Origin: Sulfolobus sp. E5-1-F
Lineage (GTDB): Archaea; Thermoproteota; Thermoprotei_A; Sulfolobales; Sulfolobaceae
Assembly (NCBI RefSeq): GCF_009601705.1
Contig: NZ_CP045687.1
Location: forward strand, 251,527-315,526
Reading direction: 5' to 3'
DNA length: 64,000 bases
The notes under the pieces are model-generated. The model was not told the origin of the DNA and did no database searches. It saw only the letters and a program-made list of their open reading frames with translations. This document shows, in pieces, positions 5,460 through 58,556 of this stretch. The number at the start of each line of letters is the position of its first letter. Positions within the stretch are counted from its first letter, which is position 1. The position numbers and the translations under genes were made by a program.

Positions 5460-7649
5460 ATGTTCGTTGGACAAAGTATCAAAAGAAAGGAGGATTTAAA
5501 GTTCATAACTGGTTCTGGTAGATATATTGACGACATTGAGTATCCGGGATCCTTATATCTTTATATAGTTAGAAGTCAAATTGCACATGCTAGGATTAAG
5601 AAGATTGATGTTAGCGATGCGTTAAAAGTTAGTGGGGTTATCGGGGTCATTACCGGCTTAACTATTCCTTTTGAAAATAGACCTAATAATTGGCCAATGG
5701 CAAAGGATGAGATATTATATGTTGGACATCCTATTGCTGCAATTTTAGCTACTGATAAATACGTTGCGGCTGATGCTTCTGATTTGATTCAAGTAGATTA
5801 CGAGGAATTACCAGCAGTTATTGATCCTGAGAAGGCTTTGAAGGATGATATTAAGGCAGTTGAAGGTAGGAGTAATATTGCTTATAAGAAGGTTTATAGT
5901 GCTGGTGACCCAGAAAAGGCACTTTCCAATTCAGATATTGTATTAGAGGAGAGGTTTGAGATATCCAGGGTTTATCCCTCACCGATGGAAACTAGAGGTT
6001 TACTTTCAGTGTATCAAGAAGGTAGTTTATTAGTTTATGCCTCTACCCAATCCGCTCACTATATGAGGAGGTATTTGTTGTCGGTTTTTGGCAATAAGGT
6101 TAGGGATATAAGAGTTATTCAGGCTGATGTTGGAGGTGCCTTTGGGGCTAAGCTATTTCCATATGCGGAGGATTTCATAACCGTTTATGCTAGTTTACAA
6201 TACAAGAGGCCCGTAAAGTGGTTTGCTTTAAGGAGTGAGGATATAAGGAGTATGTATCATGGTAGGGGGCAGATACATAAGGTTAAGTTTGGAGCTAAAA
6301 AGGATGGTACTTTAACTGGGATAATAGATGATGCGATTATTGACTTAGGCGCTGCTTCTCATGGAACTTACCTAGTGGATATAGCAGCCACAATGTTACC
6401 TGGGCCTTATAGGGTTAGAGATTTGAGAGTTAACGCTTATGGTGTTTACACTAATAAGACTCCTTTAGATCAATATAGGGGTGCTGGCAGACCGGAAGCA
6501 GCTTTCGTATACGAAAGAATAATGGATATTATTGCTGACGAACTGAAATTAGACCCCATAGCGGTTAGGAAAAGGAACATAATAACTGAATTACCTTATA
6601 TTAATCCTCTTGGTTTAAAGTATGATTCTGGTAATTACTTAAAATTGCTGGAAAGAGCTGAGAAGGTCTATAGGGAGTTTGAGGAAAGAGCTAATGAATT
6701 AAGAAAACAAGGTAGGAGAGTTGGCGCCGGTTTATCGTTCTATCTAGAGCAGAATAACTTTGGTCCTTGGGAGAGCGCTTCAGTTAGAATTAAGGCTGAT
6801 GGTAAGGTTCAAGTGATTATAGGTGCTAGCCCACATGGTCAAGGTGCTGAAACTGGTATTGCTCAAATCGTTGCTGACGAATTGGGAGTAAGCGTTGACG
6901 ATGTTGAAGTAATCTGGGGGGATACTGCTCTAATAGGTGAGGGTTTTGGTACTTACGGTAGTAGGAGTTTAACCTTAGCTGGTAATGCTGCGTTATTAGC
7001 TGCTAGAAGGGTAAAAGACAAGGCTTTAAGGTTAGCTGCACAATTTATGAAGTCTGATGTTCAAGAGCTCGAATATAAGGATGGTAAGGTTATTAATCCT
7101 AAAAGCGGTAAGGCAATGAGCTTGAAGGAAATTGCTGCTCGTAATATGGCTAGTTTAGGTGGTATTTGGGAGTATAAGGAAGAACCTGGACTAGAAGCTA
7201 CTGGATATTTCGGATTCGATAATCTAACTTACCCCTATGGTTCACATGTTGTTTTAGCAGAGGTCGATGAATCTGGAAAGGTAAAGGTAATAGATTATTA
7301 CGCTATTGATGATATAGGTACTGTTGTGAATCCAATGTTAGCTGAGGCTCAAGTTATAGGAGGAGTAATTCAAGGATTTGGCGAGAGCGTATTGGAGGAG
7401 ATTGTGTATGACGAGAATGGCAATTTGATAACTGGTAATTTATCTGATTACGCTATACCTACTGCAGTTGAAGCGTTCAATATTAAATGGGAGTACATGG
7501 AAGAGGGGAAGTCTGAGGCTCCATTGCCAGCAAAGGGAATTGGTGAGGGAGCAACTATTGGTACTCCACCAGCATTAATAAGGGCTATAGAGAAGGCAAT
7601 AGGTAAGAGGTTGACTAGATTACCAAGTAGGTTAGAAGATTTGATATGA
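5460..7649 (+). CDS. Molybdopterin-binding large subunit of an aldehyde oxidase / xanthine dehydrogenase family enzyme
   Basis: The 729-residue protein matches the catalytic subunit of molybdenum hydroxylases. The aldehyde oxidoreductase hammerhead domain comes first (residues 1-120), followed by the molybdopterin domains. Cofactor-binding signatures include GGAFGAK, QYRGAGRPEA near residue 338 and GQGAETGIAQIVADE. The catalytic Glu lies in GIGEGATIGTPPA near residue 697. The QYRGAGR loop is of the aldehyde-oxidase type, not the AYRCSFR type of CO dehydrogenase, so the substrate is more likely an aldehyde or heteroaromatic compound. In Sulfolobus such enzymes act as glyceraldehyde oxidoreductase with FAD and 2Fe-2S subunits. 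No gene for either partner is adjacent, so the subunit is an orphan here. Confidence 0.88.
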   Translation: MFVGQSIKRKEDLKFITGSGRYIDDIEYPGSLYLYIVRSQIAHARIKKIDVSDALKVSGVIGVITGLTIPFENRPNNWPMAKDEILYVGHPIAAILATDKYVAADASDLIQVDYEELPAVIDPEKALKDDIKAVEGRSNIAYKKVYSAGDPEKALSNSDIVLEERFEISRVYPSPMETRGLLSVYQEGSLLVYASTQSAHYMRRYLLSVFGNKVRDIRVIQADVGGAFGAKLFPYAEDFITVYASLQYKRPVKWFALRSEDIRSMYHGRGQIHKVKFGAKKDGTLTGIIDDAIIDLGAASHGTYLVDIAATMLPGPYRVRDLRVNAYGVYTNKTPLDQYRGAGRPEAAFVYERIMDIIADELKLDPIAVRKRNIITELPYINPLGLKYDSGNYLKLLERAEKVYREFEERANELRKQGRRVGAGLSFYLEQNNFGPWESASVRIKADGKVQVIIGASPHGQGAETGIAQIVADELGVSVDDVEVIWGDTALIGEGFGTYGSRSLTLAGNAALLAARRVKDKALRLAAQFMKSDVQELEYKDGKVINPKSGKAMSLKEIAARNMASLGGIWEYKEEPGLEATGYFGFDNLTYPYGSHVVLAEVDESGKVKVIDYYAIDDIGTVVNPMLAEAQVIGGVIQGFGESVLEEIVYDENGNLITGNLSDYAIPTAVEAFNIKWEYMEEGKSEAPLPAKGIGEGATIGTPPALIRAIEKAIGKRLTRLPSRLEDLI

Positions 7650-50668: not shown

Positions 50669-51760
50669 TTATGTCTTTCTCATCATTAGTTCTGCTAGCT
50701 TATCATTTATATCTAAATAGTTTTCTCTAGCTAAGTTAAATAATAATGCGTATTTTTTTGCATCTTGTGAATTTATTTCAGAAAGTTCGTCAGCTAGTTT
50801 ATTTAATAACGTAACTTCTCTAACACCTTGCATAGCCCATGTGTTCAGATATTTAATTGGCGTGAGGTCAAGTTCCTTTTCGGTTAACACATCTATTCTA
50901 ACTATTGGTGATGTTATATTATACTGGTAATATATAGAGTAGATTGAGAGTGAGTCTTTAAACGCCTTTTTATATTGGATATAAGCCTTTGAGATTCCCT
51001 TTAGATCATCTGGTATTGTCTGATTATTTATTAACGAATCCCAACTTATCCATCCTAGAAAAATTGGTTTATTAAGCTCAGACCTTTCGAGCCTATATTT
51101 ATATATGATATTAGATATTATGTAATTCTCCCTTGCCTTTATCAATGCCGGATAACTGTTTAAAAATTCCTTTATCAGTATTCTGTGGGAGAAGTTCTTT
51201 ACTATTCCCACGATTAGTTTATTCTTATCCTTTAATCTTCTAAGTACTGTAGAACGATATAGTGCTAACTTATCCAAAGATAAGATATTTTCTATCTCAA
51301 CATCCTCTTCATAATATGTTGGTGGATCTACAATAGGTCCATCGATAAATATCACGTCACACTCTTCACACTTCTCAATTAGACCCGTTTCTAAAGTAAG
51401 CATAAATAAGATGGATTTGTTGGATATTACATTCTTGTCGTAGTAATTCTCTATTATCTTGAAATCTTCAGCTATATCAGAGGGAACATTCTTTTTATCC
51501 TTCTTTTTACCTAAGATTTTCACAGCTCTAGCCAAGATGAGGGTTACATCACTTAACTCTATTTCATATTTACTTCCGTCTACCGCGCACGCTATGTGAT
51601 CGGAATCTATAATCTCGTCAAGTAGTCCTATTTTTAGTTCTGTGTTATTTGAAGTAATATCGTCAAAAATTAGGTTAGTTGCCGTGTTTATTTTCTCTTT
51701 TTCATCAATATCCTTAATAGCTAGTTCATTTATCTTTTTGATTACCTCATCGATATTCAA
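50669..51760 (-). CDS. NurA-like nuclease
   Basis: The 363-residue protein has the NurA layout. The first catalytic segment is IACAVDGSKYE with Asp61, the second is VIFIDGPIVDPPTYY with another Asp near residue 139, and then VGIVKNFSHRIL and a C-terminal IRIDV segment follow. NurA is a 5'-3' nuclease that works with the HerA translocase in end resection. The last gene of the operon, it overlaps the coiled-coil gene by four bases. It is not the housekeeping NurA, because no mre11 or rad50 gene is near. The level of similarity is low and needs a profile search. Confidence 0.72.
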   Translation of the reverse strand: MNIDEVIKKINELAIKDIDEKEKINTATNLIFDDITSNNTELKIGLLDEIIDSDHIACAVDGSKYEIELSDVTLILARAVKILGKKKDKKNVPSDIAEDFKIIENYYDKNVISNKSILFMLTLETGLIEKCEECDVIFIDGPIVDPPTYYEEDVEIENILSLDKLALYRSTVLRRLKDKNKLIVGIVKNFSHRILIKEFLNSYPALIKARENYIISNIIYKYRLERSELNKPIFLGWISWDSLINNQTIPDDLKGISKAYIQYKKAFKDSLSIYSIYYQYNITSPIVRIDVLTEKELDLTPIKYLNTWAMQGVREVTLLNKLADELSEINSQDAKKYALLFNLARENYLDINDKLAELMMRKT

Positions 51761-52446
51761 ACTTTCACCTTTATCGAAATATTTCTCTCTACAAGCATTT
51801 CCATAACCTTAATAGCTTCTTGTAAGTTATCTTTACTAATCTTGATTTCGCCTTTTTCCATAAGTGCTATCAGAATATTAATCTCGTTCTGGTTTAGATT
51901 TACTTTTCTCAACTCGTTTACTATAATCCCATATACTTCATTGAGGTGTCGTTTAGCTTGTATTTCAACTTCATTCAACTTAAATAGTGATTTCTCATTA
52001 GGGATGGTAAAAGTTTTCACATCTTTTGGAATTTTAAGAAAATGATACAAGATTTTCGCATATAATTTTAGTCTATCATTTATTTCCTCGATGTTCTTAA
52101 TCTTATCTTCTATTATTTTATTTATATCTTGTTCTACGTCCTTTTCTAAGCTGTTAATTTTTCCTTTTATCTTCTCTACGTATCTGATGATCTCTTCAGC
52201 GGAATCGAATTTAATTAGTCTTTCTATATCTGCTTTAATTTCCTCAAGCTTATCTTCATACTTATTTAATTCGCTTATTTTCTTCTCTAAGCTCCTTAAT
52301 TTCTTTAGAGACTCCTTAAGGCTTTGTTTAGATATTTCTAATTCTTCTATTGTCTCAGTAATTTTTCTATCTTCCTCTCTAAGTTTTTCTACGTCTAAGT
52401 GCTGTTTATATTGGGTTAGTTTTTCTATAAACTCAGCTAAATCCAT
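51757..52446 (-). CDS. Coiled-coil protein of the HerA/NurA-like operon
   Basis: The 229-residue protein is a long coiled coil over residues 5-130 (for example EEDRKITETIEELEISKQSL), then a helical part with FLKIPKDVKTFTIPNEKSLF, ending in a short winged-helix-like region (NQNEINILIALMEKGEIKIS). It has no catalytic motif. It overlaps the large ATPase gene by 14 bp and the NurA-like gene by four bases, so it is likely a structural subunit that links them. Confidence 0.65.
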   Translation of the reverse strand: MDLAEFIEKLTQYKQHLDVEKLREEDRKITETIEELEISKQSLKESLKKLRSLEKKISELNKYEDKLEEIKADIERLIKFDSAEEIIRYVEKIKGKINSLEKDVEQDINKIIEDKIKNIEEINDRLKLYAKILYHFLKIPKDVKTFTIPNEKSLFKLNEVEIQAKRHLNEVYGIIVNELRKVNLNQNEINILIALMEKGEIKISKDNLQEAIKVMEMLVERNISIKVKV

Positions 52447-55400
52447 ATTCTTCTAGAACCTCCTTTATCTCTTGAATTAGTTGTGTTATCTTTTGCTTGT
52501 TTCTCTCCACGTTCTCCTTTAACTTAGGTAATTCCGGACTTATCTTTTCTAACTCCCTTACAATCATCTCAATATTATTTAATTGAATACCGACTTTACT
52601 TAACGATACAATTTCCTCTATTATTGTTCCTTTTAACTCATCTCCGACTATCGATATTCCATTTAATATATCTTTCAGCAATTTGAATAATATGAAATAA
52701 AGGTTTGAGTTATCTTCAACATGAATTGTGGTAAGTAAGTAATCGAGGTATCTTTTGAAAGGTTCCGTTTCTCCCTTTTCATTTATCTCTTGAATTCTCC
52801 TCGCTAGCTTATCCATGTGTATTTTGAAGTTTTCTTTGAGTTCTCTAATTATATCGTGTACTCTCTCTATTTCCTCTATTTTCTCGTTTATCTTAATATA
52901 TCTCTTAGCTTTTTCTACAACTTCTAATTTCTTGTAGATTTCCTCCACGATCATGTCTGTTTCAATAACTGATCTTTCAGTCTCTCTTAATAATTCCAGA
53001 TAAATATTCGATAAATAGAGGTAATCATAGCATAACCTTATATCTCTATTTTCAGTGCAAGATTTCTCATATGTTTCAATGACCTCTTTCATTTCTTCAA
53101 GACTTCTTACCGCAGCTCCCCTCTTTTTAGCTGTTATGAAGTATCCGTAAGCTGTATATGGATTATCTAGTTTTTCCTTTATTTTTCTTATCTGCTCACT
53201 TATTTTCATATAAATTGAGTCTTTATTTAAATATTTACTAACTTCACCACTAACTATTGACGAGTAGACTAGGAAGTCTAAGGTAGGGTTTTGCCCAATT
53301 TTTTTATCAGGGTTAAAAATTTGGTAAGCGAAGATCAAAGGATTATTTTTATAATCCTTTCTTTTGATATCTTGTGGATTTACATAGTACATTATATAAT
53401 TAAATACGACATCCTCTGCTTCTTGTTTGAATTTTTGCTTAATAAGTCCCGCAAATAGCTTAGAAAACGACGATAATGAGTCTCCAGCCAGGTCTTCGAA
53501 ATCTATGTAATTAGCTCTTATCTTTATTATATAATTGTTATGGAAGTAAGTAACTACGTCTTCAATGAATGTGTTTGATGTTTCTATATCCTCTAAATGA
53601 AATTGTTTACTTCCATACATTCTAAATTTCTCGTTAATGATTTCATTTACCTTGTCGAATACTTCATTAGCGTTAGCCATCTTTATTGAAGGGTAGAAGA
53701 TTATCCAATTAAAAGATTGTATTAGTCTCTTATTTTTAGGTATTGGAAGTTGTTTCAAATTAAGATTATCCCTTATTTTTAATAGTAGAGAGGATATCGA
53801 ATTTTTCAAATCCCCTAGTCTTAGTTCTATAGAATCCAGTCTAATTCTACTTTGTCCATAAATTTTAGAGAATAATAGATATAATAGCTGTCTTTTCTTC
53901 GGTGTAGTGATTTTTAGTTCGATCAAAGGTATTGATAGAGCGTCTAAAGTTTTCGACAATTCTTCCTTTCCTATTTGAGGCTCTATTAGAATAACACCGT
54001 GAATTATCTCATCGCTTTCTCTAATCTCTTTTATTAGACTCTTAATCTCATCCTCGGTAACAGGATTTGTTAAAATAATTGTAATTTTTTCATTTTTATC
54101 TATAATTTTTAAAAACCTTATATAGTCTTTGGTTCTATTCACACTATCTATTTTTATTCCTAAAATCTCCAAAAGATATTCTAGGGATTCGAGTTCCTTC
54201 TCTCTATCTGTAATATATGTGTTCACAAACTGTAGAGCCTTATCTCGTATTTCTCTAGATTTGAACTCTACTACTAATCCTCCTATGTTCGTATTCGCTA
54301 TGCTCTCAAAGAAGTTCCAAGATAATGCGTAGGCTTCAGTTTTACTGAATATTGTTAGTTTTTTGATATCCTCCTTTATTTTACTTATATCTATACTTTC
54401 ATATACTATATTTTCTATATTATCTGATATAAATATGTAAAAGTCGTCTTGATAATACGTTAAAAGGAAATCTTCTACGTATTCTTGTCCTTTGGGGAAT
54501 ACCTCAATCCATTTTAAGTATGGTATTAGAGCTCCTTTAACAATATGACCTTCTAATTGTTTTATGATTAATTTTTCGTCAGTGAATATTCTACTCATTA
54601 GCACCCTATATAACTTGCTTAATTCTTGAGAGTCCATTTCGTTTTCAATTCTTGCCAACGTATCTAGCTTAATTGTTTCTCCTTCTGAATTTAGACTGAT
54701 CCCTTTATCTGACCTTGCTAGTTCATTGAAAATTCTTTCTACATTAGGAAGATTATCGCAAAGTATATCGTTGAAGAACCTTACATATTTTCTTCTCTCC
54801 TGGTCTATTACCCAGTATGGTAAATCCATGTATTGGAGTATTTTGAAGTCCTTTACGTTACCCATATTTAGCATACATTTTAGCATCAGTAGAAACTCTA
54901 ATTTAGACGGATTTTCTATACTAACTTTCCTTATTCTTTCAAGGAGTGAAGGGTAGGTCTCTGAAAATAGGTTATAAATCAATCCGCCAGTTCCAAATAT
55001 TTTAGAATATGCGCTTGGAGTCATGGAAAGATATACTATTGAATTTCCGGTTGAGTTGGCTAATTCCTTTACCTTATTCCAAAAATCCTTTATCTCGCTT
55101 TGATATTCTGCAAAATAATCTACAGAGCTCTCGACCTCATCAATGAGATACACGTTGTTTCTAAACGTTAATAGATCTTCAGTTTTACTTAAAAGTTCTA
55201 CAAAAGGTACTTTTATTACATTAATATTTCTGCTTTTAGCGTATTCCTCAATAATGTCGAGAAACGTGCTTTTTCCTTGGCCCCAATCGGCCACAAGGGA
55301 TATTATTTCTGGGGATTGTTTAGTCGTAGATATTCTGTCTATCTCGTCCTTAACTTGCTTGAAAAATCTCAGTCTATTAATATAAAATGGATTTTCACTA

Positions 55401-55471
55401 ATACAAGAGAAAATTTGATATATGTAAGACGAGTCGGAGGCAGTCTCGCTTATTCTCTTATAACAACTCAC
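52433..55471 (-). CDS. Large P-loop ATPase (1012 aa) of the HerA/NurA-like operon
   Basis: The N-terminal 230 residues are an AAA+/KAP-like ATPase: Walker A variant ADWGQGKST (residues 61-69), Walker B VYLIDEVESS (residues 107-116) and a sensor-like SIVYLSMTPSAY. The rest, over 700 residues, is helical with a second alpha/beta part (about residues 440-520), and coiled coils toward the C-terminus (from about 830). It recalls large ATPases of phage-defence islands such as BrxC in layout only. It starts four bases after the end of the HerA-like gene. I do not know any described protein with this full domain order. Confidence 0.7.
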   Translation of the reverse strand: MSCYKRISETASDSSYIYQIFSCISENPFYINRLRFFKQVKDEIDRISTTKQSPEIISLVADWGQGKSTFLDIIEEYAKSRNINVIKVPFVELLSKTEDLLTFRNNVYLIDEVESSVDYFAEYQSEIKDFWNKVKELANSTGNSIVYLSMTPSAYSKIFGTGGLIYNLFSETYPSLLERIRKVSIENPSKLEFLLMLKCMLNMGNVKDFKILQYMDLPYWVIDQERRKYVRFFNDILCDNLPNVERIFNELARSDKGISLNSEGETIKLDTLARIENEMDSQELSKLYRVLMSRIFTDEKLIIKQLEGHIVKGALIPYLKWIEVFPKGQEYVEDFLLTYYQDDFYIFISDNIENIVYESIDISKIKEDIKKLTIFSKTEAYALSWNFFESIANTNIGGLVVEFKSREIRDKALQFVNTYITDREKELESLEYLLEILGIKIDSVNRTKDYIRFLKIIDKNEKITIILTNPVTEDEIKSLIKEIRESDEIIHGVILIEPQIGKEELSKTLDALSIPLIELKITTPKKRQLLYLLFSKIYGQSRIRLDSIELRLGDLKNSISSLLLKIRDNLNLKQLPIPKNKRLIQSFNWIIFYPSIKMANANEVFDKVNEIINEKFRMYGSKQFHLEDIETSNTFIEDVVTYFHNNYIIKIRANYIDFEDLAGDSLSSFSKLFAGLIKQKFKQEAEDVVFNYIMYYVNPQDIKRKDYKNNPLIFAYQIFNPDKKIGQNPTLDFLVYSSIVSGEVSKYLNKDSIYMKISEQIRKIKEKLDNPYTAYGYFITAKKRGAAVRSLEEMKEVIETYEKSCTENRDIRLCYDYLYLSNIYLELLRETERSVIETDMIVEEIYKKLEVVEKAKRYIKINEKIEEIERVHDIIRELKENFKIHMDKLARRIQEINEKGETEPFKRYLDYLLTTIHVEDNSNLYFILFKLLKDILNGISIVGDELKGTIIEEIVSLSKVGIQLNNIEMIVRELEKISPELPKLKENVERNKQKITQLIQEIKEVLEEYGFS

Positions 55472-55475
55472 ATTT

Positions 55476-57086
55476 TCACCCTTCGCTTAAAATTAAATCA
55501 ATTCTTTCCACGTTTCCAGTGTATGACCCCAACCTAGCATCCCATGGTATTCTTACCAATGCTGGACTTTTCATTATTGACATAAGCCCACTTACTATTA
55601 CGTGCCCAGTCTCTAATGACGTTAAATTTCTAGTTAACGATTCTGGTAAACCACCTGAAGCAGACATCACATACTTTACGTCCTCGTGATATATTCTATG
55701 AAAGAAGAAGGTGTTAATCATAGATAATACGTATTTATCTATAAATGCTGGTCTTTGACTTACCAGAATTAAAGAAGCTCCAAATTTCCTTCCTTGAGTT
55801 GCCAATGTTACCAATACGTCTTTTGTTAAATTGGCGTTTACTGGATAATCAACAGAAGGTATGTAGTTTTGTGCCTCTTCTATTACAAATCCCAAAAATC
55901 TTTGATTGCCGTTATATTTGGATTTTGTAAGATAATTGAAGATCAATCTAGTTATGTAACTCACGATGAGTTGTTTTGTAAGGATATCTATACCGGGTGA
56001 ACCCTCAGCTGAGAAGTCTATGATTGCCAAACCTCTATTTCTCCAAATTACTTCTAGTGTACTTTCAGTTAAAGAGGCAGAAGAGCTAACCAGTTGTAGC
56101 TTGCTAATCACCTTGTTTTTGAATATTTCTAATGCACTCGCGATTCCTCTAGCTGTGCTCGTTGTTATTCCGATATCTTTATTTTGAGCCATAGTAAGAA
56201 TCTCATTTTTTAGGTTCTCGATTCCTATCGTAGTTCCTAAAAGTGTATTATATTCCCTATTCTCGTGATTTGCTAGAACTTGCTCTAGGAAATTTAGCTG
56301 TAAGGTATTATATGAAGCCTCTCCATATTTTAGAGACATAATGAATTCAGATAATTCTCTAGGCGTGAACATGGACAAATCTATTGTAAGCTTAATGTCA
56401 TTTTGTTCCTTAGGATCCTTTAGTATATATCTCTTTATCCAACCCCTTCCCTTAGATACTACGTCAAGATTTGTTGAAGCTAAATCTATGTAGTCTCCGT
56501 TTGCGTCAACTACAATCATTGGTAAGGCTGTAATTTTATCTCCTATTTTTATGTTAGATAGGAGCTTGATTAAATATCTCATATTGTAACTCTTTCCACT
56601 CCCTGTTTCCCCAAAAACTCCTACATGCATGGTTATCGCATTAAGGTCTAGCAATAAAGGTATTTCAGAACCTGCCAAAGCCCCATACTCAACTAATCCT
56701 TTTTTGCTTTTTATACCATAAAACGAAAGTAGGTCTTTCTCATTCTTTATTTCTGGTAATCTTCTTACAAAAGAGCCCGGTTTAGGAGTAGTGTTATGAT
56801 CATATTTTTTTATTAAGTGCAAAGTAGCCTTTATTATTGTGTTCATGTCTAAAATCTGATATATTGATGGTTCTTTTAGTATTGACTTAGCTATATCTCC
56901 CTTTTCGTCAAAGAATTCATTTAGAAATTCATAGTTCTCAACTCTGACTAATGAAAGTTTATCGGAATCATCAATTAATAACAACTGTCCTATGTTTATT
57001 TCCTCGTCAGCCCTAATTAGACCTTGCAACTCATTTGCTTCGCTTTTCTGCAGTACTATTCCTATTATCTCTCCCTTTTCCATCAC
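55476..57086 (-). CDS. HerA-like DNA translocase ATPase
   Basis: The 536-residue protein has a short N-terminal HAS-barrel-like domain (EIIGIVLQKSEANELQGLI), the Walker A GETGSGKS at residues 159-166, an IVVDANGDYIDL segment after it, the Walker B FVIEEAQNYIP, and TLATQGRKFGASLILVSQRP, all typical of the HerA/FtsK branch. HerA proteins form hexamers that pump DNA and feed the NurA nuclease. Housekeeping HerA is encoded with Mre11 and Rad50; this is a paralogue in another setting. It lies 47 bases after the ArcS-like gene. Confidence 0.85.
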   Translation of the reverse strand: MMEKGEIIGIVLQKSEANELQGLIRADEEINIGQLLLIDDSDKLSLVRVENYEFLNEFFDEKGDIAKSILKEPSIYQILDMNTIIKATLHLIKKYDHNTTPKPGSFVRRLPEIKNEKDLLSFYGIKSKKGLVEYGALAGSEIPLLLDLNAITMHVGVFGETGSGKSYNMRYLIKLLSNIKIGDKITALPMIVVDANGDYIDLASTNLDVVSKGRGWIKRYILKDPKEQNDIKLTIDLSMFTPRELSEFIMSLKYGEASYNTLQLNFLEQVLANHENREYNTLLGTTIGIENLKNEILTMAQNKDIGITTSTARGIASALEIFKNKVISKLQLVSSSASLTESTLEVIWRNRGLAIIDFSAEGSPGIDILTKQLIVSYITRLIFNYLTKSKYNGNQRFLGFVIEEAQNYIPSVDYPVNANLTKDVLVTLATQGRKFGASLILVSQRPAFIDKYVLSMINTFFFHRIYHEDVKYVMSASGGLPESLTRNLTSLETGHVIVSGLMSIMKSPALVRIPWDARLGSYTGNVERIDLILSEG

Positions 57087-57133
57087 TATTTAGCATTATT
57101 TAAGAATGTTTTTAAACGATTAAGCTGCTAGGA

Positions 57134-57700
57134 TTATGACGAAATGCTCGCTATTACATTAGAAATGGTCTTGAAAGCTAACCTACCGTATGGGTAAATT
57201 GTTATTTTTAAATTTGAGATTTCAGCTGATCTTTTCACTATTTCGTAGTGATGCTTAGGTAGTATACCTATTAACCTCTTGTGCAACTTACTTATTTTTA
57301 AGAGGGGTTTAGTTAGTAATATTATAAATTCTTCTTTCTCCTCTTTACTCATAAGTCTTGGTGGATAATCGTAATTATTGAACGGATAACATTCCTCTAA
57401 TTCTTTAGGCACTAATAACATTGGTTCCGATACTGAATAGACTTGCACTTTTTCCTCTAAATTATATTTGTTTAATGTAGCATAGGCTATTTTGTGGGTA
57501 GGGGAGCGTGAATAAGGCTTAACTACTGTACAAGGTAATAGCAATCCAATTTCCTTATTTGAACTCCAATTTTCAAGGAAATAACTATGCCATCTCATTA
57601 CTACTGGGTGTTTGAATAAATCATCTATATTATCTTTTTTAGATATTCTAGTAAAATCAGGCTTAAGATATTCATATAGTTGCTCGCATGCAGAGCTCAT
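57134..57700 (-). CDS. ArcS-like (archaeosine synthase core, DUF5591) protein
   Basis: The 188-residue protein carries the full lysine-transfer motif of archaeosine synthase, PC-X3-KPY-X2-S-X2-H, as Pro56 Cys57, Lys61-Pro62-Tyr63, Ser66 and His69. The later EPMLLVPKELEECYPFNNYDYPPR is typical of the domain. Full-length ArcS has a TGT-like part before this domain, and here that part is a separate gene overlapping by 29 bp. ArcS attaches lysine to preQ0 in tRNA as a step to archaeosine. Crenarchaea of this group are thought to use other enzymes for archaeosine, so its presence inside a HerA/NurA-like operon is remarkable. Confidence 0.75.
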   Translation of the reverse strand: MSSACEQLYEYLKPDFTRISKKDNIDDLFKHPVVMRWHSYFLENWSSNKEIGLLLPCTVVKPYSRSPTHKIAYATLNKYNLEEKVQVYSVSEPMLLVPKELEECYPFNNYDYPPRLMSKEEKEEFIILLTKPLLKISKLHKRLIGILPKHHYEIVKRSAEISNLKITIYPYGRLAFKTISNVIASISS

Positions 57701-58556
57701 TTACCTCTTCCTCTATCTCATCTTCTGAAAAGTTATCTAGCTTTTTAGAATATTCTATTAATGGATTGTTAATTTCATATTCTGAATTTAAGAGTACCCA
57801 TGCATTAATTAAACTTCTGTCTATCCAATTATCAAGTCTAATTGGAAATGGATATTTTGTCCTATCTAAGAATGATAATAGAGTCTCTAATTCTTCTTCA
57901 CTCGCTCTCTTAGTCCCCCAAACTATTTTTCTTTCACCAACGTATCTTTCTCCTTTACCGGGTATAATTACCATGCCATGTATTCCCTTTATTCTGTAGG
58001 TTGAGGTATCTACACTATCAGCGTTAAAGTAGACTTTTCTCATGAACGGTGATCCAGCTCCCAATACGTGGATTTTTCCTTTCCATAATTTTCTCACTAG
58101 ATGATATATTCCTACTGCAATTTTTTTGTTACCATTTTTATTAAGGGTAGGAGGTATTATTCCACCAAATGCCACCAGATCAGTGTATTGGGAGTAGAAG
58201 TCTATAGCTATCTTTATTGATTCTACGTCATAAGCGTGTATAACTGGTACTATCTTCTTATCAAAAACCGAATATAGATATTCAAAGTATTTATAATTTA
58301 ATTCTGAAGGTTTATGGCAAGGGTTTGACGGTATATCGAGGCTCATGTATTGTGTAGCATTTAGGATTTTATATTTCTCAACAACTTTTTCTATATTAAC
58401 CTTTATTCCTTTTACCATTATTTGATATCCTCCAGAGTCCACCCATGTCTCATTTTCCCAAGACAGACTATTCCAATTTAATTGGTTTACCATTAATGGT
58501 TGTTTAAACGTCCAAACTGGGATTTTCATGTCAGGTATACCTAGTATTATCTTCAT
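57672..58556 (-). CDS. tRNA-guanine transglycosylase-like protein without zinc motif
   Basis: The 294-residue TIM-barrel protein has the TGT substrate motif WVDSGGYQ with Asp40, the SLDIPSNP loop, FGGIIPPT, HVLGAGSP and an Asp183 in ADSVDTSTY at the place of the nucleophile of archaeal TGT enzymes. The zinc-binding C-x-C-x-x-C-x(n)-H stretch of normal TGTs is absent; the only Cys residues are at 80 and 290. Such paralogues include the TGT-like part of ArcS and the DNA-modifying DpdA proteins. It is the first gene of the six-gene minus-strand operon and overlaps the ArcS-like gene. Confidence 0.75.
   Translation of the reverse strand: MKIILGIPDMKIPVWTFKQPLMVNQLNWNSLSWENETWVDSGGYQIMVKGIKVNIEKVVEKYKILNATQYMSLDIPSNPCHKPSELNYKYFEYLYSVFDKKIVPVIHAYDVESIKIAIDFYSQYTDLVAFGGIIPPTLNKNGNKKIAVGIYHLVRKLWKGKIHVLGAGSPFMRKVYFNADSVDTSTYRIKGIHGMVIIPGKGERYVGERKIVWGTKRASEEELETLLSFLDRTKYPFPIRLDNWIDRSLINAWVLLNSEYEINNPLIEYSKKLDNFSEDEIEEEVNELCMRATI

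Follow-up and report, generated by a model that had tools for sequence, protein, structure and literature searches.

Analyses of a 64,000-nt stretch of the thermoacidophilic archaeon Sulfolobus sp. E5-1-F (contig NZ_CP045687.1; hereafter the window) indicated that the six contiguous minus-strand open reading frames (ORFs) at positions 50669-58556 form an operon of two modules. The M module codes for a DpdA-type guanine transglycosylase and an ArcS domain, and the R module for HerA, an AAA+ protein, a coiled-coil protein and NurA. The functional coupling of the two modules is well supported by their distribution in the Sulfolobaceae. With a confidence slightly better than even, we read the operon as an archaeal two-module system, similar to 7-deazaguanine restriction-modification, standing near the Dpd and HerA-capture systems. 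The genes, in the order of transcription, are the following.

57672..58556, minus strand: M module gene 1, DpdA-type (probably DNA-type) guanine transglycosylase, 294 aa; phrog_887 match, D40/D183, H107/H163, no CxCxxC zinc site
57134..57700, minus strand: M module gene 2, stand-alone DUF5591, the ArcS catalytic domain, 188 aa; DUF5591 match, PC-x3-KPY-x2-S-x2-H motif
55476..57086, minus strand: R module gene 1, HerA/FtsK-type translocase paralogue, 536 aa; HerA central domain, Walker A GETGSGKS 159-166, IEEAQ
52433..55471, minus strand: R module gene 2, AAA+ protein, 1012 aa; P-loop DWGQGKS, Walker B LIDEVE
51757..52446, minus strand: R module gene 3, coiled-coil protein, 229 aa; same slot occupied in 18/18 genomes
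50669..51760, minus strand: R module gene 4, NurA nuclease paralogue, 363 aa; NurA match, invariant acidic residues

Successive genes overlap by 29 bases, are separated by gaps of 47 and 4 bases, and overlap by 14 and 4 bases, exactly the five distances that the initial annotation had given for this run of genes. The six proteins were scanned against Pfam, NCBIfam and PADLOC. Pfam matches were obtained for the 188-aa protein (DUF5591, E 2.5e-18), the 536-aa protein (HerA central domain, E 6.9e-37) and the 363-aa protein (NurA, E 3e-17), while the 294-aa, 1012-aa and 229-aa proteins matched no Pfam family above the cut-off. The earlier labels ArcS-like, HerA-like and NurA-like are confirmed by these matches, and the label TGT-like (tRNA-guanine transglycosylase-like) by the match to phrog_887 described below.

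Joint occurrence of the two modules

The co-occurrence sample consisted of 31 Sulfolobaceae genomes, and the neighbourhoods were read in all carriers. Both modules were intact in 18 genomes, neither was intact in 12, and one genome carried a truncated M module only. The six families, for which the initial annotation had proposed a search in the Sulfolobales, thus co-occur in 18 of the 31. DUF5591 was present in 19 genomes; the ATPase and NurA occurred in 18 of these 19 and were intact nowhere else (Fisher P 9e-8 for the co-occurrence of M and R, phylogeny ignored).

Comparison of the carriers revealed that the HerA, ATPase, coiled-coil and NurA genes always form one block in that order, the coiled-coil slot holding a diverged 268-aa version in two genomes of genus g7, and that the transglycosylase and DUF5591 genes lie at most about 3 kb apart in variable orientation. 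Since all six genes form a single run in the same order in nine genomes of two genera (G000, G146, G152, G136, G153, G151, G066, G096 and G155), and all six families co-occur in 18 of the 31 genomes, the grouping is beyond chance. In the remaining nine carriers the modules are unlinked, with separations of about 23 kb in G050, about 30 kb in G090, about 120 kb in G114 and at least about 1 Mb in G141, G131, G119 and G078 (the largest being about 1.3 Mb), while G011 and G059 carry them on separate contigs. Loss of linkage in relatives, which the initial annotation had taken as a sign against a joint system, is thus literally found in these nine genomes, but co-occurrence is kept there nonetheless. 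Because it persists in the nine unlinked carriers, the two modules are considered to be coupled in function.

The only genome with M and without R, G150, contains a solitary DUF5591 gene that shares 86% identity with its G050 counterpart, and of the transglycosylase only a C-terminal stub (L108 9296-10064); this piece looks like a recently transferred and decayed M module.

The housekeeping TgtA phylogenetic tree showed that genus g3, in which no module is intact, is sister to g2, which carries both (support 97), and that g4, which carries neither, is sister to g7, which carries both (support 93). These two contrasts imply at least two concerted gains or losses. The trees of the M and R modules disagree, G050 being placed with g2 for M (support 85) but, for R, beside its own genus. 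In g1 and g5 the thermopsin–SPFH and orf226–DsbH–SDR genes on the flanks mark a common locus; the M half in g2 and G050 retains the DsbH side, which in g3 and g4 is present without the module. Judged from these flanks, the modules may have been separated secondarily in G050 and g2. A common locus holding both modules, a possibly derived split and few independent events would all agree with two unrelated modules that co-occur by common descent from an ancestral shared locus. Such an origin is, however, rather improbable given co-occurrence in 9/9 unlinked carriers, the two sister-genus contrasts without both modules and the differing M and R trees.

The M module and its viral copies

The window transglycosylase was matched by phrog_887, a phage DpdA-type family, with E 1.6e-43, while a housekeeping TgtA gave no match. 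Bit scores against this family were 331 for the DpdA of phage 9g, 248 for SIRV2, 187 for STSV1, 150 for the window protein and 44–88 for other Sulfolobales paralogues. The hhalign comparison of the transglycosylase gave 97.1% probability with phage DpdA (E 5.8e-11) versus 45% with the TgtA of the same organism (E 2e-4). The curated bacterial DpdA equivalog NF041059 matched none of the window, STSV1 and 9g DpdA proteins, and the window protein is therefore not filed as a bacterial-type DpdA.

Alignment of the amino acid sequences revealed that the catalytic-type Asp D40 (DSGG) and the nucleophile-type Asp D183 (SVDTSTY) are kept, and that D40, H107, H163 and D183 are invariant, phage DpdA included. 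H107 is common to the transglycosylase and phage DpdA, whereas TgtA has IQGG at this place; H163, which aligns with the conserved His196 of PMC6884629 if the latter follows the 9g numbering, is also found in TgtA. The CxCxxC zinc site, present in the TgtA of the same genome, is absent from the transglycosylase. The best PDB match of its structure model (pLDDT, the predicted local distance difference test, 65) was 7ui4, the DNA preQ0 insertase DpdA (E 4e-4). By these sequence comparisons the transglycosylase is closer to phage DpdA than to the TgtA of its own organism, and DNA is quite likely its substrate.

A profile of the broader transglycosylase family matched the archaeosine TGT 1iq8 and DpdA 7ui4 and, weakly (E 0.008), Cap10 (PDB 9ntn), a protein of the cyclic oligonucleotide-based antiphage signalling system (CBASS). 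TGT-like enzymes thus recur in defence systems. Cap9/Cap10 act on a protein, and by analogy the window transglycosylase might modify a protein and thereby control the HerA-NurA machine. We consider this very improbable: DpdA 7ui4 and archaeosine TGT match far better than Cap10, the operon has no QueC partner, and the viral M pairs come without R proteins.

Paralogues of the transglycosylase of 300-400 aa were also found in families f2, f3, f4, f7 and f8 of the same order (L124-L143), where they are solitary among ordinary genes. With neither DUF5591 nor HerA/NurA beside them, these relatives were set aside as belonging to a different context.

The PC-x3-KPY-x2-S-x2-H motif of the second M protein, which we take to be the ArcS signature, was invariant in 18 sequences (17 cellular and one viral). 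The protein reached 68 bits against the full-length ArcS equivalog, below the cut-off of 440, and consists of the DUF5591 catalytic domain alone, with no other ArcS domains. The initial annotation had seen in the two genes the hallmarks of 7-deazaguanine chemistry; the ArcS likeness has to be narrowed to the catalytic domain.

RaSEA, the partner of ArcS, was below the cut-off in all 31 Sulfolobaceae genomes. TgtA was found in 29 of them, the two misses being the incomplete genomes G149 and G155. Thirty genomes contained QueC-type frames of Gat-QueC size. Since TgtA and Gat-QueC-sized proteins occur in complete genomes with or without the M pair, tRNA archaeosine does not depend on the pair. 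This weakens the possibility that the pair modifies tRNA or rRNA and that its HerA-NurA neighbourhood is indirect. Such an RNA function would suit the fold, which is that of tRNA-guanine transglycosylases, and the stand-alone paralogues that other families of the order carry among ordinary genes. Besides the existing cover of tRNA archaeosine by TgtA and QueC-type proteins, the absence of RaSEA, the lost zinc site and the family membership with phage DpdA rather than TgtA argue against it, and we regard it as improbable.

The ArcS of T. kodakarensis adds lysine to preQ0 nucleosides without requiring tRNA structure, and the preQ0-lysine adduct withstands reverse exchange (PMC11298593). Because this lysine transfer needs no tRNA and blocks reversal, a preQ0-lysine mark in DNA is a reasonable prediction. 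As RaSEA is absent, the pair may yield preQ0-lysine instead of archaeosine; that preQ0-Lys is also the final product is put forward tentatively, as a possibility on the lower side of even.

The same overlapping M pair was found in the spindle viruses STSV1, STSV2 and STSV4 with 60–68% identity. The window query also found the transglycosylase in SIRV-type rudiviruses, SBRV1 and SRV with 29–40% identity, the SIRV-type viruses carrying it alone. Among viruses the ATPase query gave no relative, and the viral M pairs come without R proteins. According to Hutinet et al., DpdA or genes of archaeosine synthesis are also carried by archaeal viruses, and in phages DpdA is required for DNA modification and, with 7-deazaguanines, shields the DNA from restriction (PMC6884629).

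In SIRV2 (L121 2793-4933) and SRV (L176 2441-4562) the transglycosylase gene adjoins a gene annotated as 'aminoacid permease' (gp14-gp13), which could code for a transporter of a 7-deazaguanine precursor.

The R module machine and the proposed function

The Walker A GETGSGKS and the IEEAQ motif of HerA are invariant across 18 genomes. The R-module HerA obtained 100 bits against the HerA equivalog, whose cut-off is 800 and was not reached. In NurA, residues D61, E124, D140 and D290 are invariant in the module family, and D61, D140 and D290 are also present in housekeeping NurA. The AAA+ family has an invariant P-loop, A/GDWG[QM]GK[ST], and an invariant DEVE Walker B. The sequence of the 1012-aa protein gave only coiled-coil matches in the PDB, while the closest folds of its N-terminal domain were DnaA/Hda-type AAA+ (low-confidence model from three sequences, mean pLDDT 50), so that a DnaA/Hda-like kinship is only a hint from this model.

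The complete 1012-aa ATPase was found in no family other than the Sulfolobaceae among 398 Thermoproteota genomes, and a scan of named genomes with it gave two contigs only, from Ca. Aramenus sulfurataquae and Sulfolobus sp. UBA167. A search by tblastn at E 1e-3 did not bear out a possible ATPase remnant in G084, which was left uncounted. G146 carries a second short ATPase fragment, 57% identical over 60 residues, far from the operon (L118 about 5975-6253; G146:C2:1956064-1956249).

The ORF order, motifs and a NurA match located the housekeeping Mre11-Rad50-HerA-NurA operon at about G000:C1:345237-351494, separate from the window operon; the initial annotation was therefore right in treating the latter as a second set. 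The genome has five NurA-family genes in all. Two more of them, at G000:C1 874997-875869 and 376870-377697, each lie beside a HerA-like ORF (601 and 609 aa; L208, L209; L148 8743-11778; L223 6679-9623), and by sequence there are several HerA-NurA-like sets in the genome besides those of the window and of Mre11-Rad50.

In the mechanism that we propose, the DpdA-type transglycosylase would replace guanine of the chromosomal DNA by preQ0, a compound that the cell produces anyway for its tRNA, and the stand-alone ArcS domain would convert the preQ0 nitrile, most likely by lysine addition, which would also block the reverse exchange. In the R complex HerA would serve as motor, the AAA+ protein for site recognition or loading, the coiled coil as bridge and NurA as nuclease, and the translocating complex would degrade DNA that lacks the mark. 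By marking their own genomes, the spindle viruses with the M pair and the rudiviruses with the transglycosylase would escape this degradation. Restriction of unmarked DNA is, in our estimate, somewhat probable. It is doubtful that all three elements hold together, namely an undescribed preQ0-lysine DNA base made without RaSEA, a dedicated AAA+-HerA-NurA destruction of unmarked DNA, and a spindle-virus counter-defence through an acquired pair. The archaeal counterpart of a Dpd-type island, offered by the initial annotation as one of several readings, is the best supported by virtue of the kinship with phage DpdA and the co-occurrence of unlinked modules; its DNA substrate and its restriction step are what we infer.

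Several observations weigh against a restriction-modification system. None of the four R proteins belongs to a named defence system in the PADLOC scan, and the Pfam, NCBIfam and PADLOC scans of the six proteins found no DpdB-K homologues in the operon. In two genera the locus keeps a syntenic place among ordinary genes (thermopsin/SPFH and DsbH/SDR), unlike a mobile defence island, and a nucleotide search found no similar plasmid DNA. The 31 genomes have shared ancestry, and the independent events are few. Among rudiviruses the matches are limited to SIRV-type viruses, SBRV1 and SRV, ARV1 being without an annotated transglycosylase. Moreover, SIRV2 mutants with a spontaneous loss of gp10-gp14, among them the transglycosylase gp13, were reported to propagate like wild type in the CRISPR-null S. 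islandicus LAL14/1 (PMC6315595), which weighs against a strict need for the transglycosylase in this host.

The syntenic position between thermopsin/SPFH and DsbH/SDR would suit a machine for repair, recombination or chromosome processing that reads the DNA mark as a signal. HerA-NurA is known to resect DNA ends (PMC4351679, PMC5715905), and the housekeeping Mre11-Rad50-HerA-NurA set is separate. A repair function leaves unexplained both the viral carriage of the M genes and the complete absence of the system from whole genera such as g4 and g3, and is judged fairly unlikely.

Should the restriction reading hold, the so far unexplained 'queuine tRNA-ribosyltransferase' genes in the STSV spindle viruses and SIRV-type rudiviruses would have a role, and the retention of several HerA–NurA paralogues by Sulfolobales would be accounted for. 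The reading would also predict a possibly new DNA base and a restriction barrier affecting transformation in archaeal genetics. No description of chromosomal 7-deazaguanine restriction-modification in hyperthermophilic archaea was found in the literature searched.

Comparison with known systems

The operon resembles the Dpd system (dpdA-K islands) and phage DpdA/DpdA2 in having a DpdA-type transglycosylase as presumed entry enzyme and preQ0 as presumed donor, and it shares with Dpd the coupling of modification genes to ATPase and nuclease genes and the existence of viral versions of the modification enzyme. It differs from Dpd in the ArcS domain, which stands in place of the DpdC action, in HerA-NurA as nuclease module and in lacking an NF041059 match. 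Against ArcS/RaSEA archaeosine synthase, with which it has the DUF5591 catalytic domain in common, it has no RaSEA in the Sulfolobaceae, a DpdA-type partner instead of TgtA and no further ArcS domains.

The BREX-related capture (BRC) systems, named after bacteriophage exclusion, likewise combine a HerA/FtsK translocase with an AAA+ ATPase of the ORC/Cdc6 type, some of their loci also coding for a TGT, and self-marking by 7-deazaguanine has been proposed for them; the main text describing them mentions neither Sulfolobales nor ArcS or DUF5591 (PMC12839542). The window operon, unlike BRC, has NurA as nuclease and an ArcS domain. The BRC markers PglZ, DUF6079, STAND NTPase and DUF4007 had no Pfam matches in the six proteins, and GNAT was not found in the operon.

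The combination of HerA motor, AAA+ ATPase and nuclease is also that of the HerA/FtsK capture systems and DndFGH; in the former the AAA+ protein is of ORC/Cdc6 type. The combination is proposed to intercept invading DNA, and its modification and restriction modules are separable (PMC10853773). Here the nuclease is NurA, no restriction endonuclease-type (REase or iREase) domains were found, the predicted mark is a base and not a phosphorothioate, and M and R are not decoupled. The housekeeping HerA-NurA-Mre11-Rad50 operon, finally, contains separate paralogues in another operon, whereas those of the window are joined to an unrelated AAA+ protein and a coiled coil; the two sets share the HerA and NurA families and the conserved metal-binding-type Asp residues.

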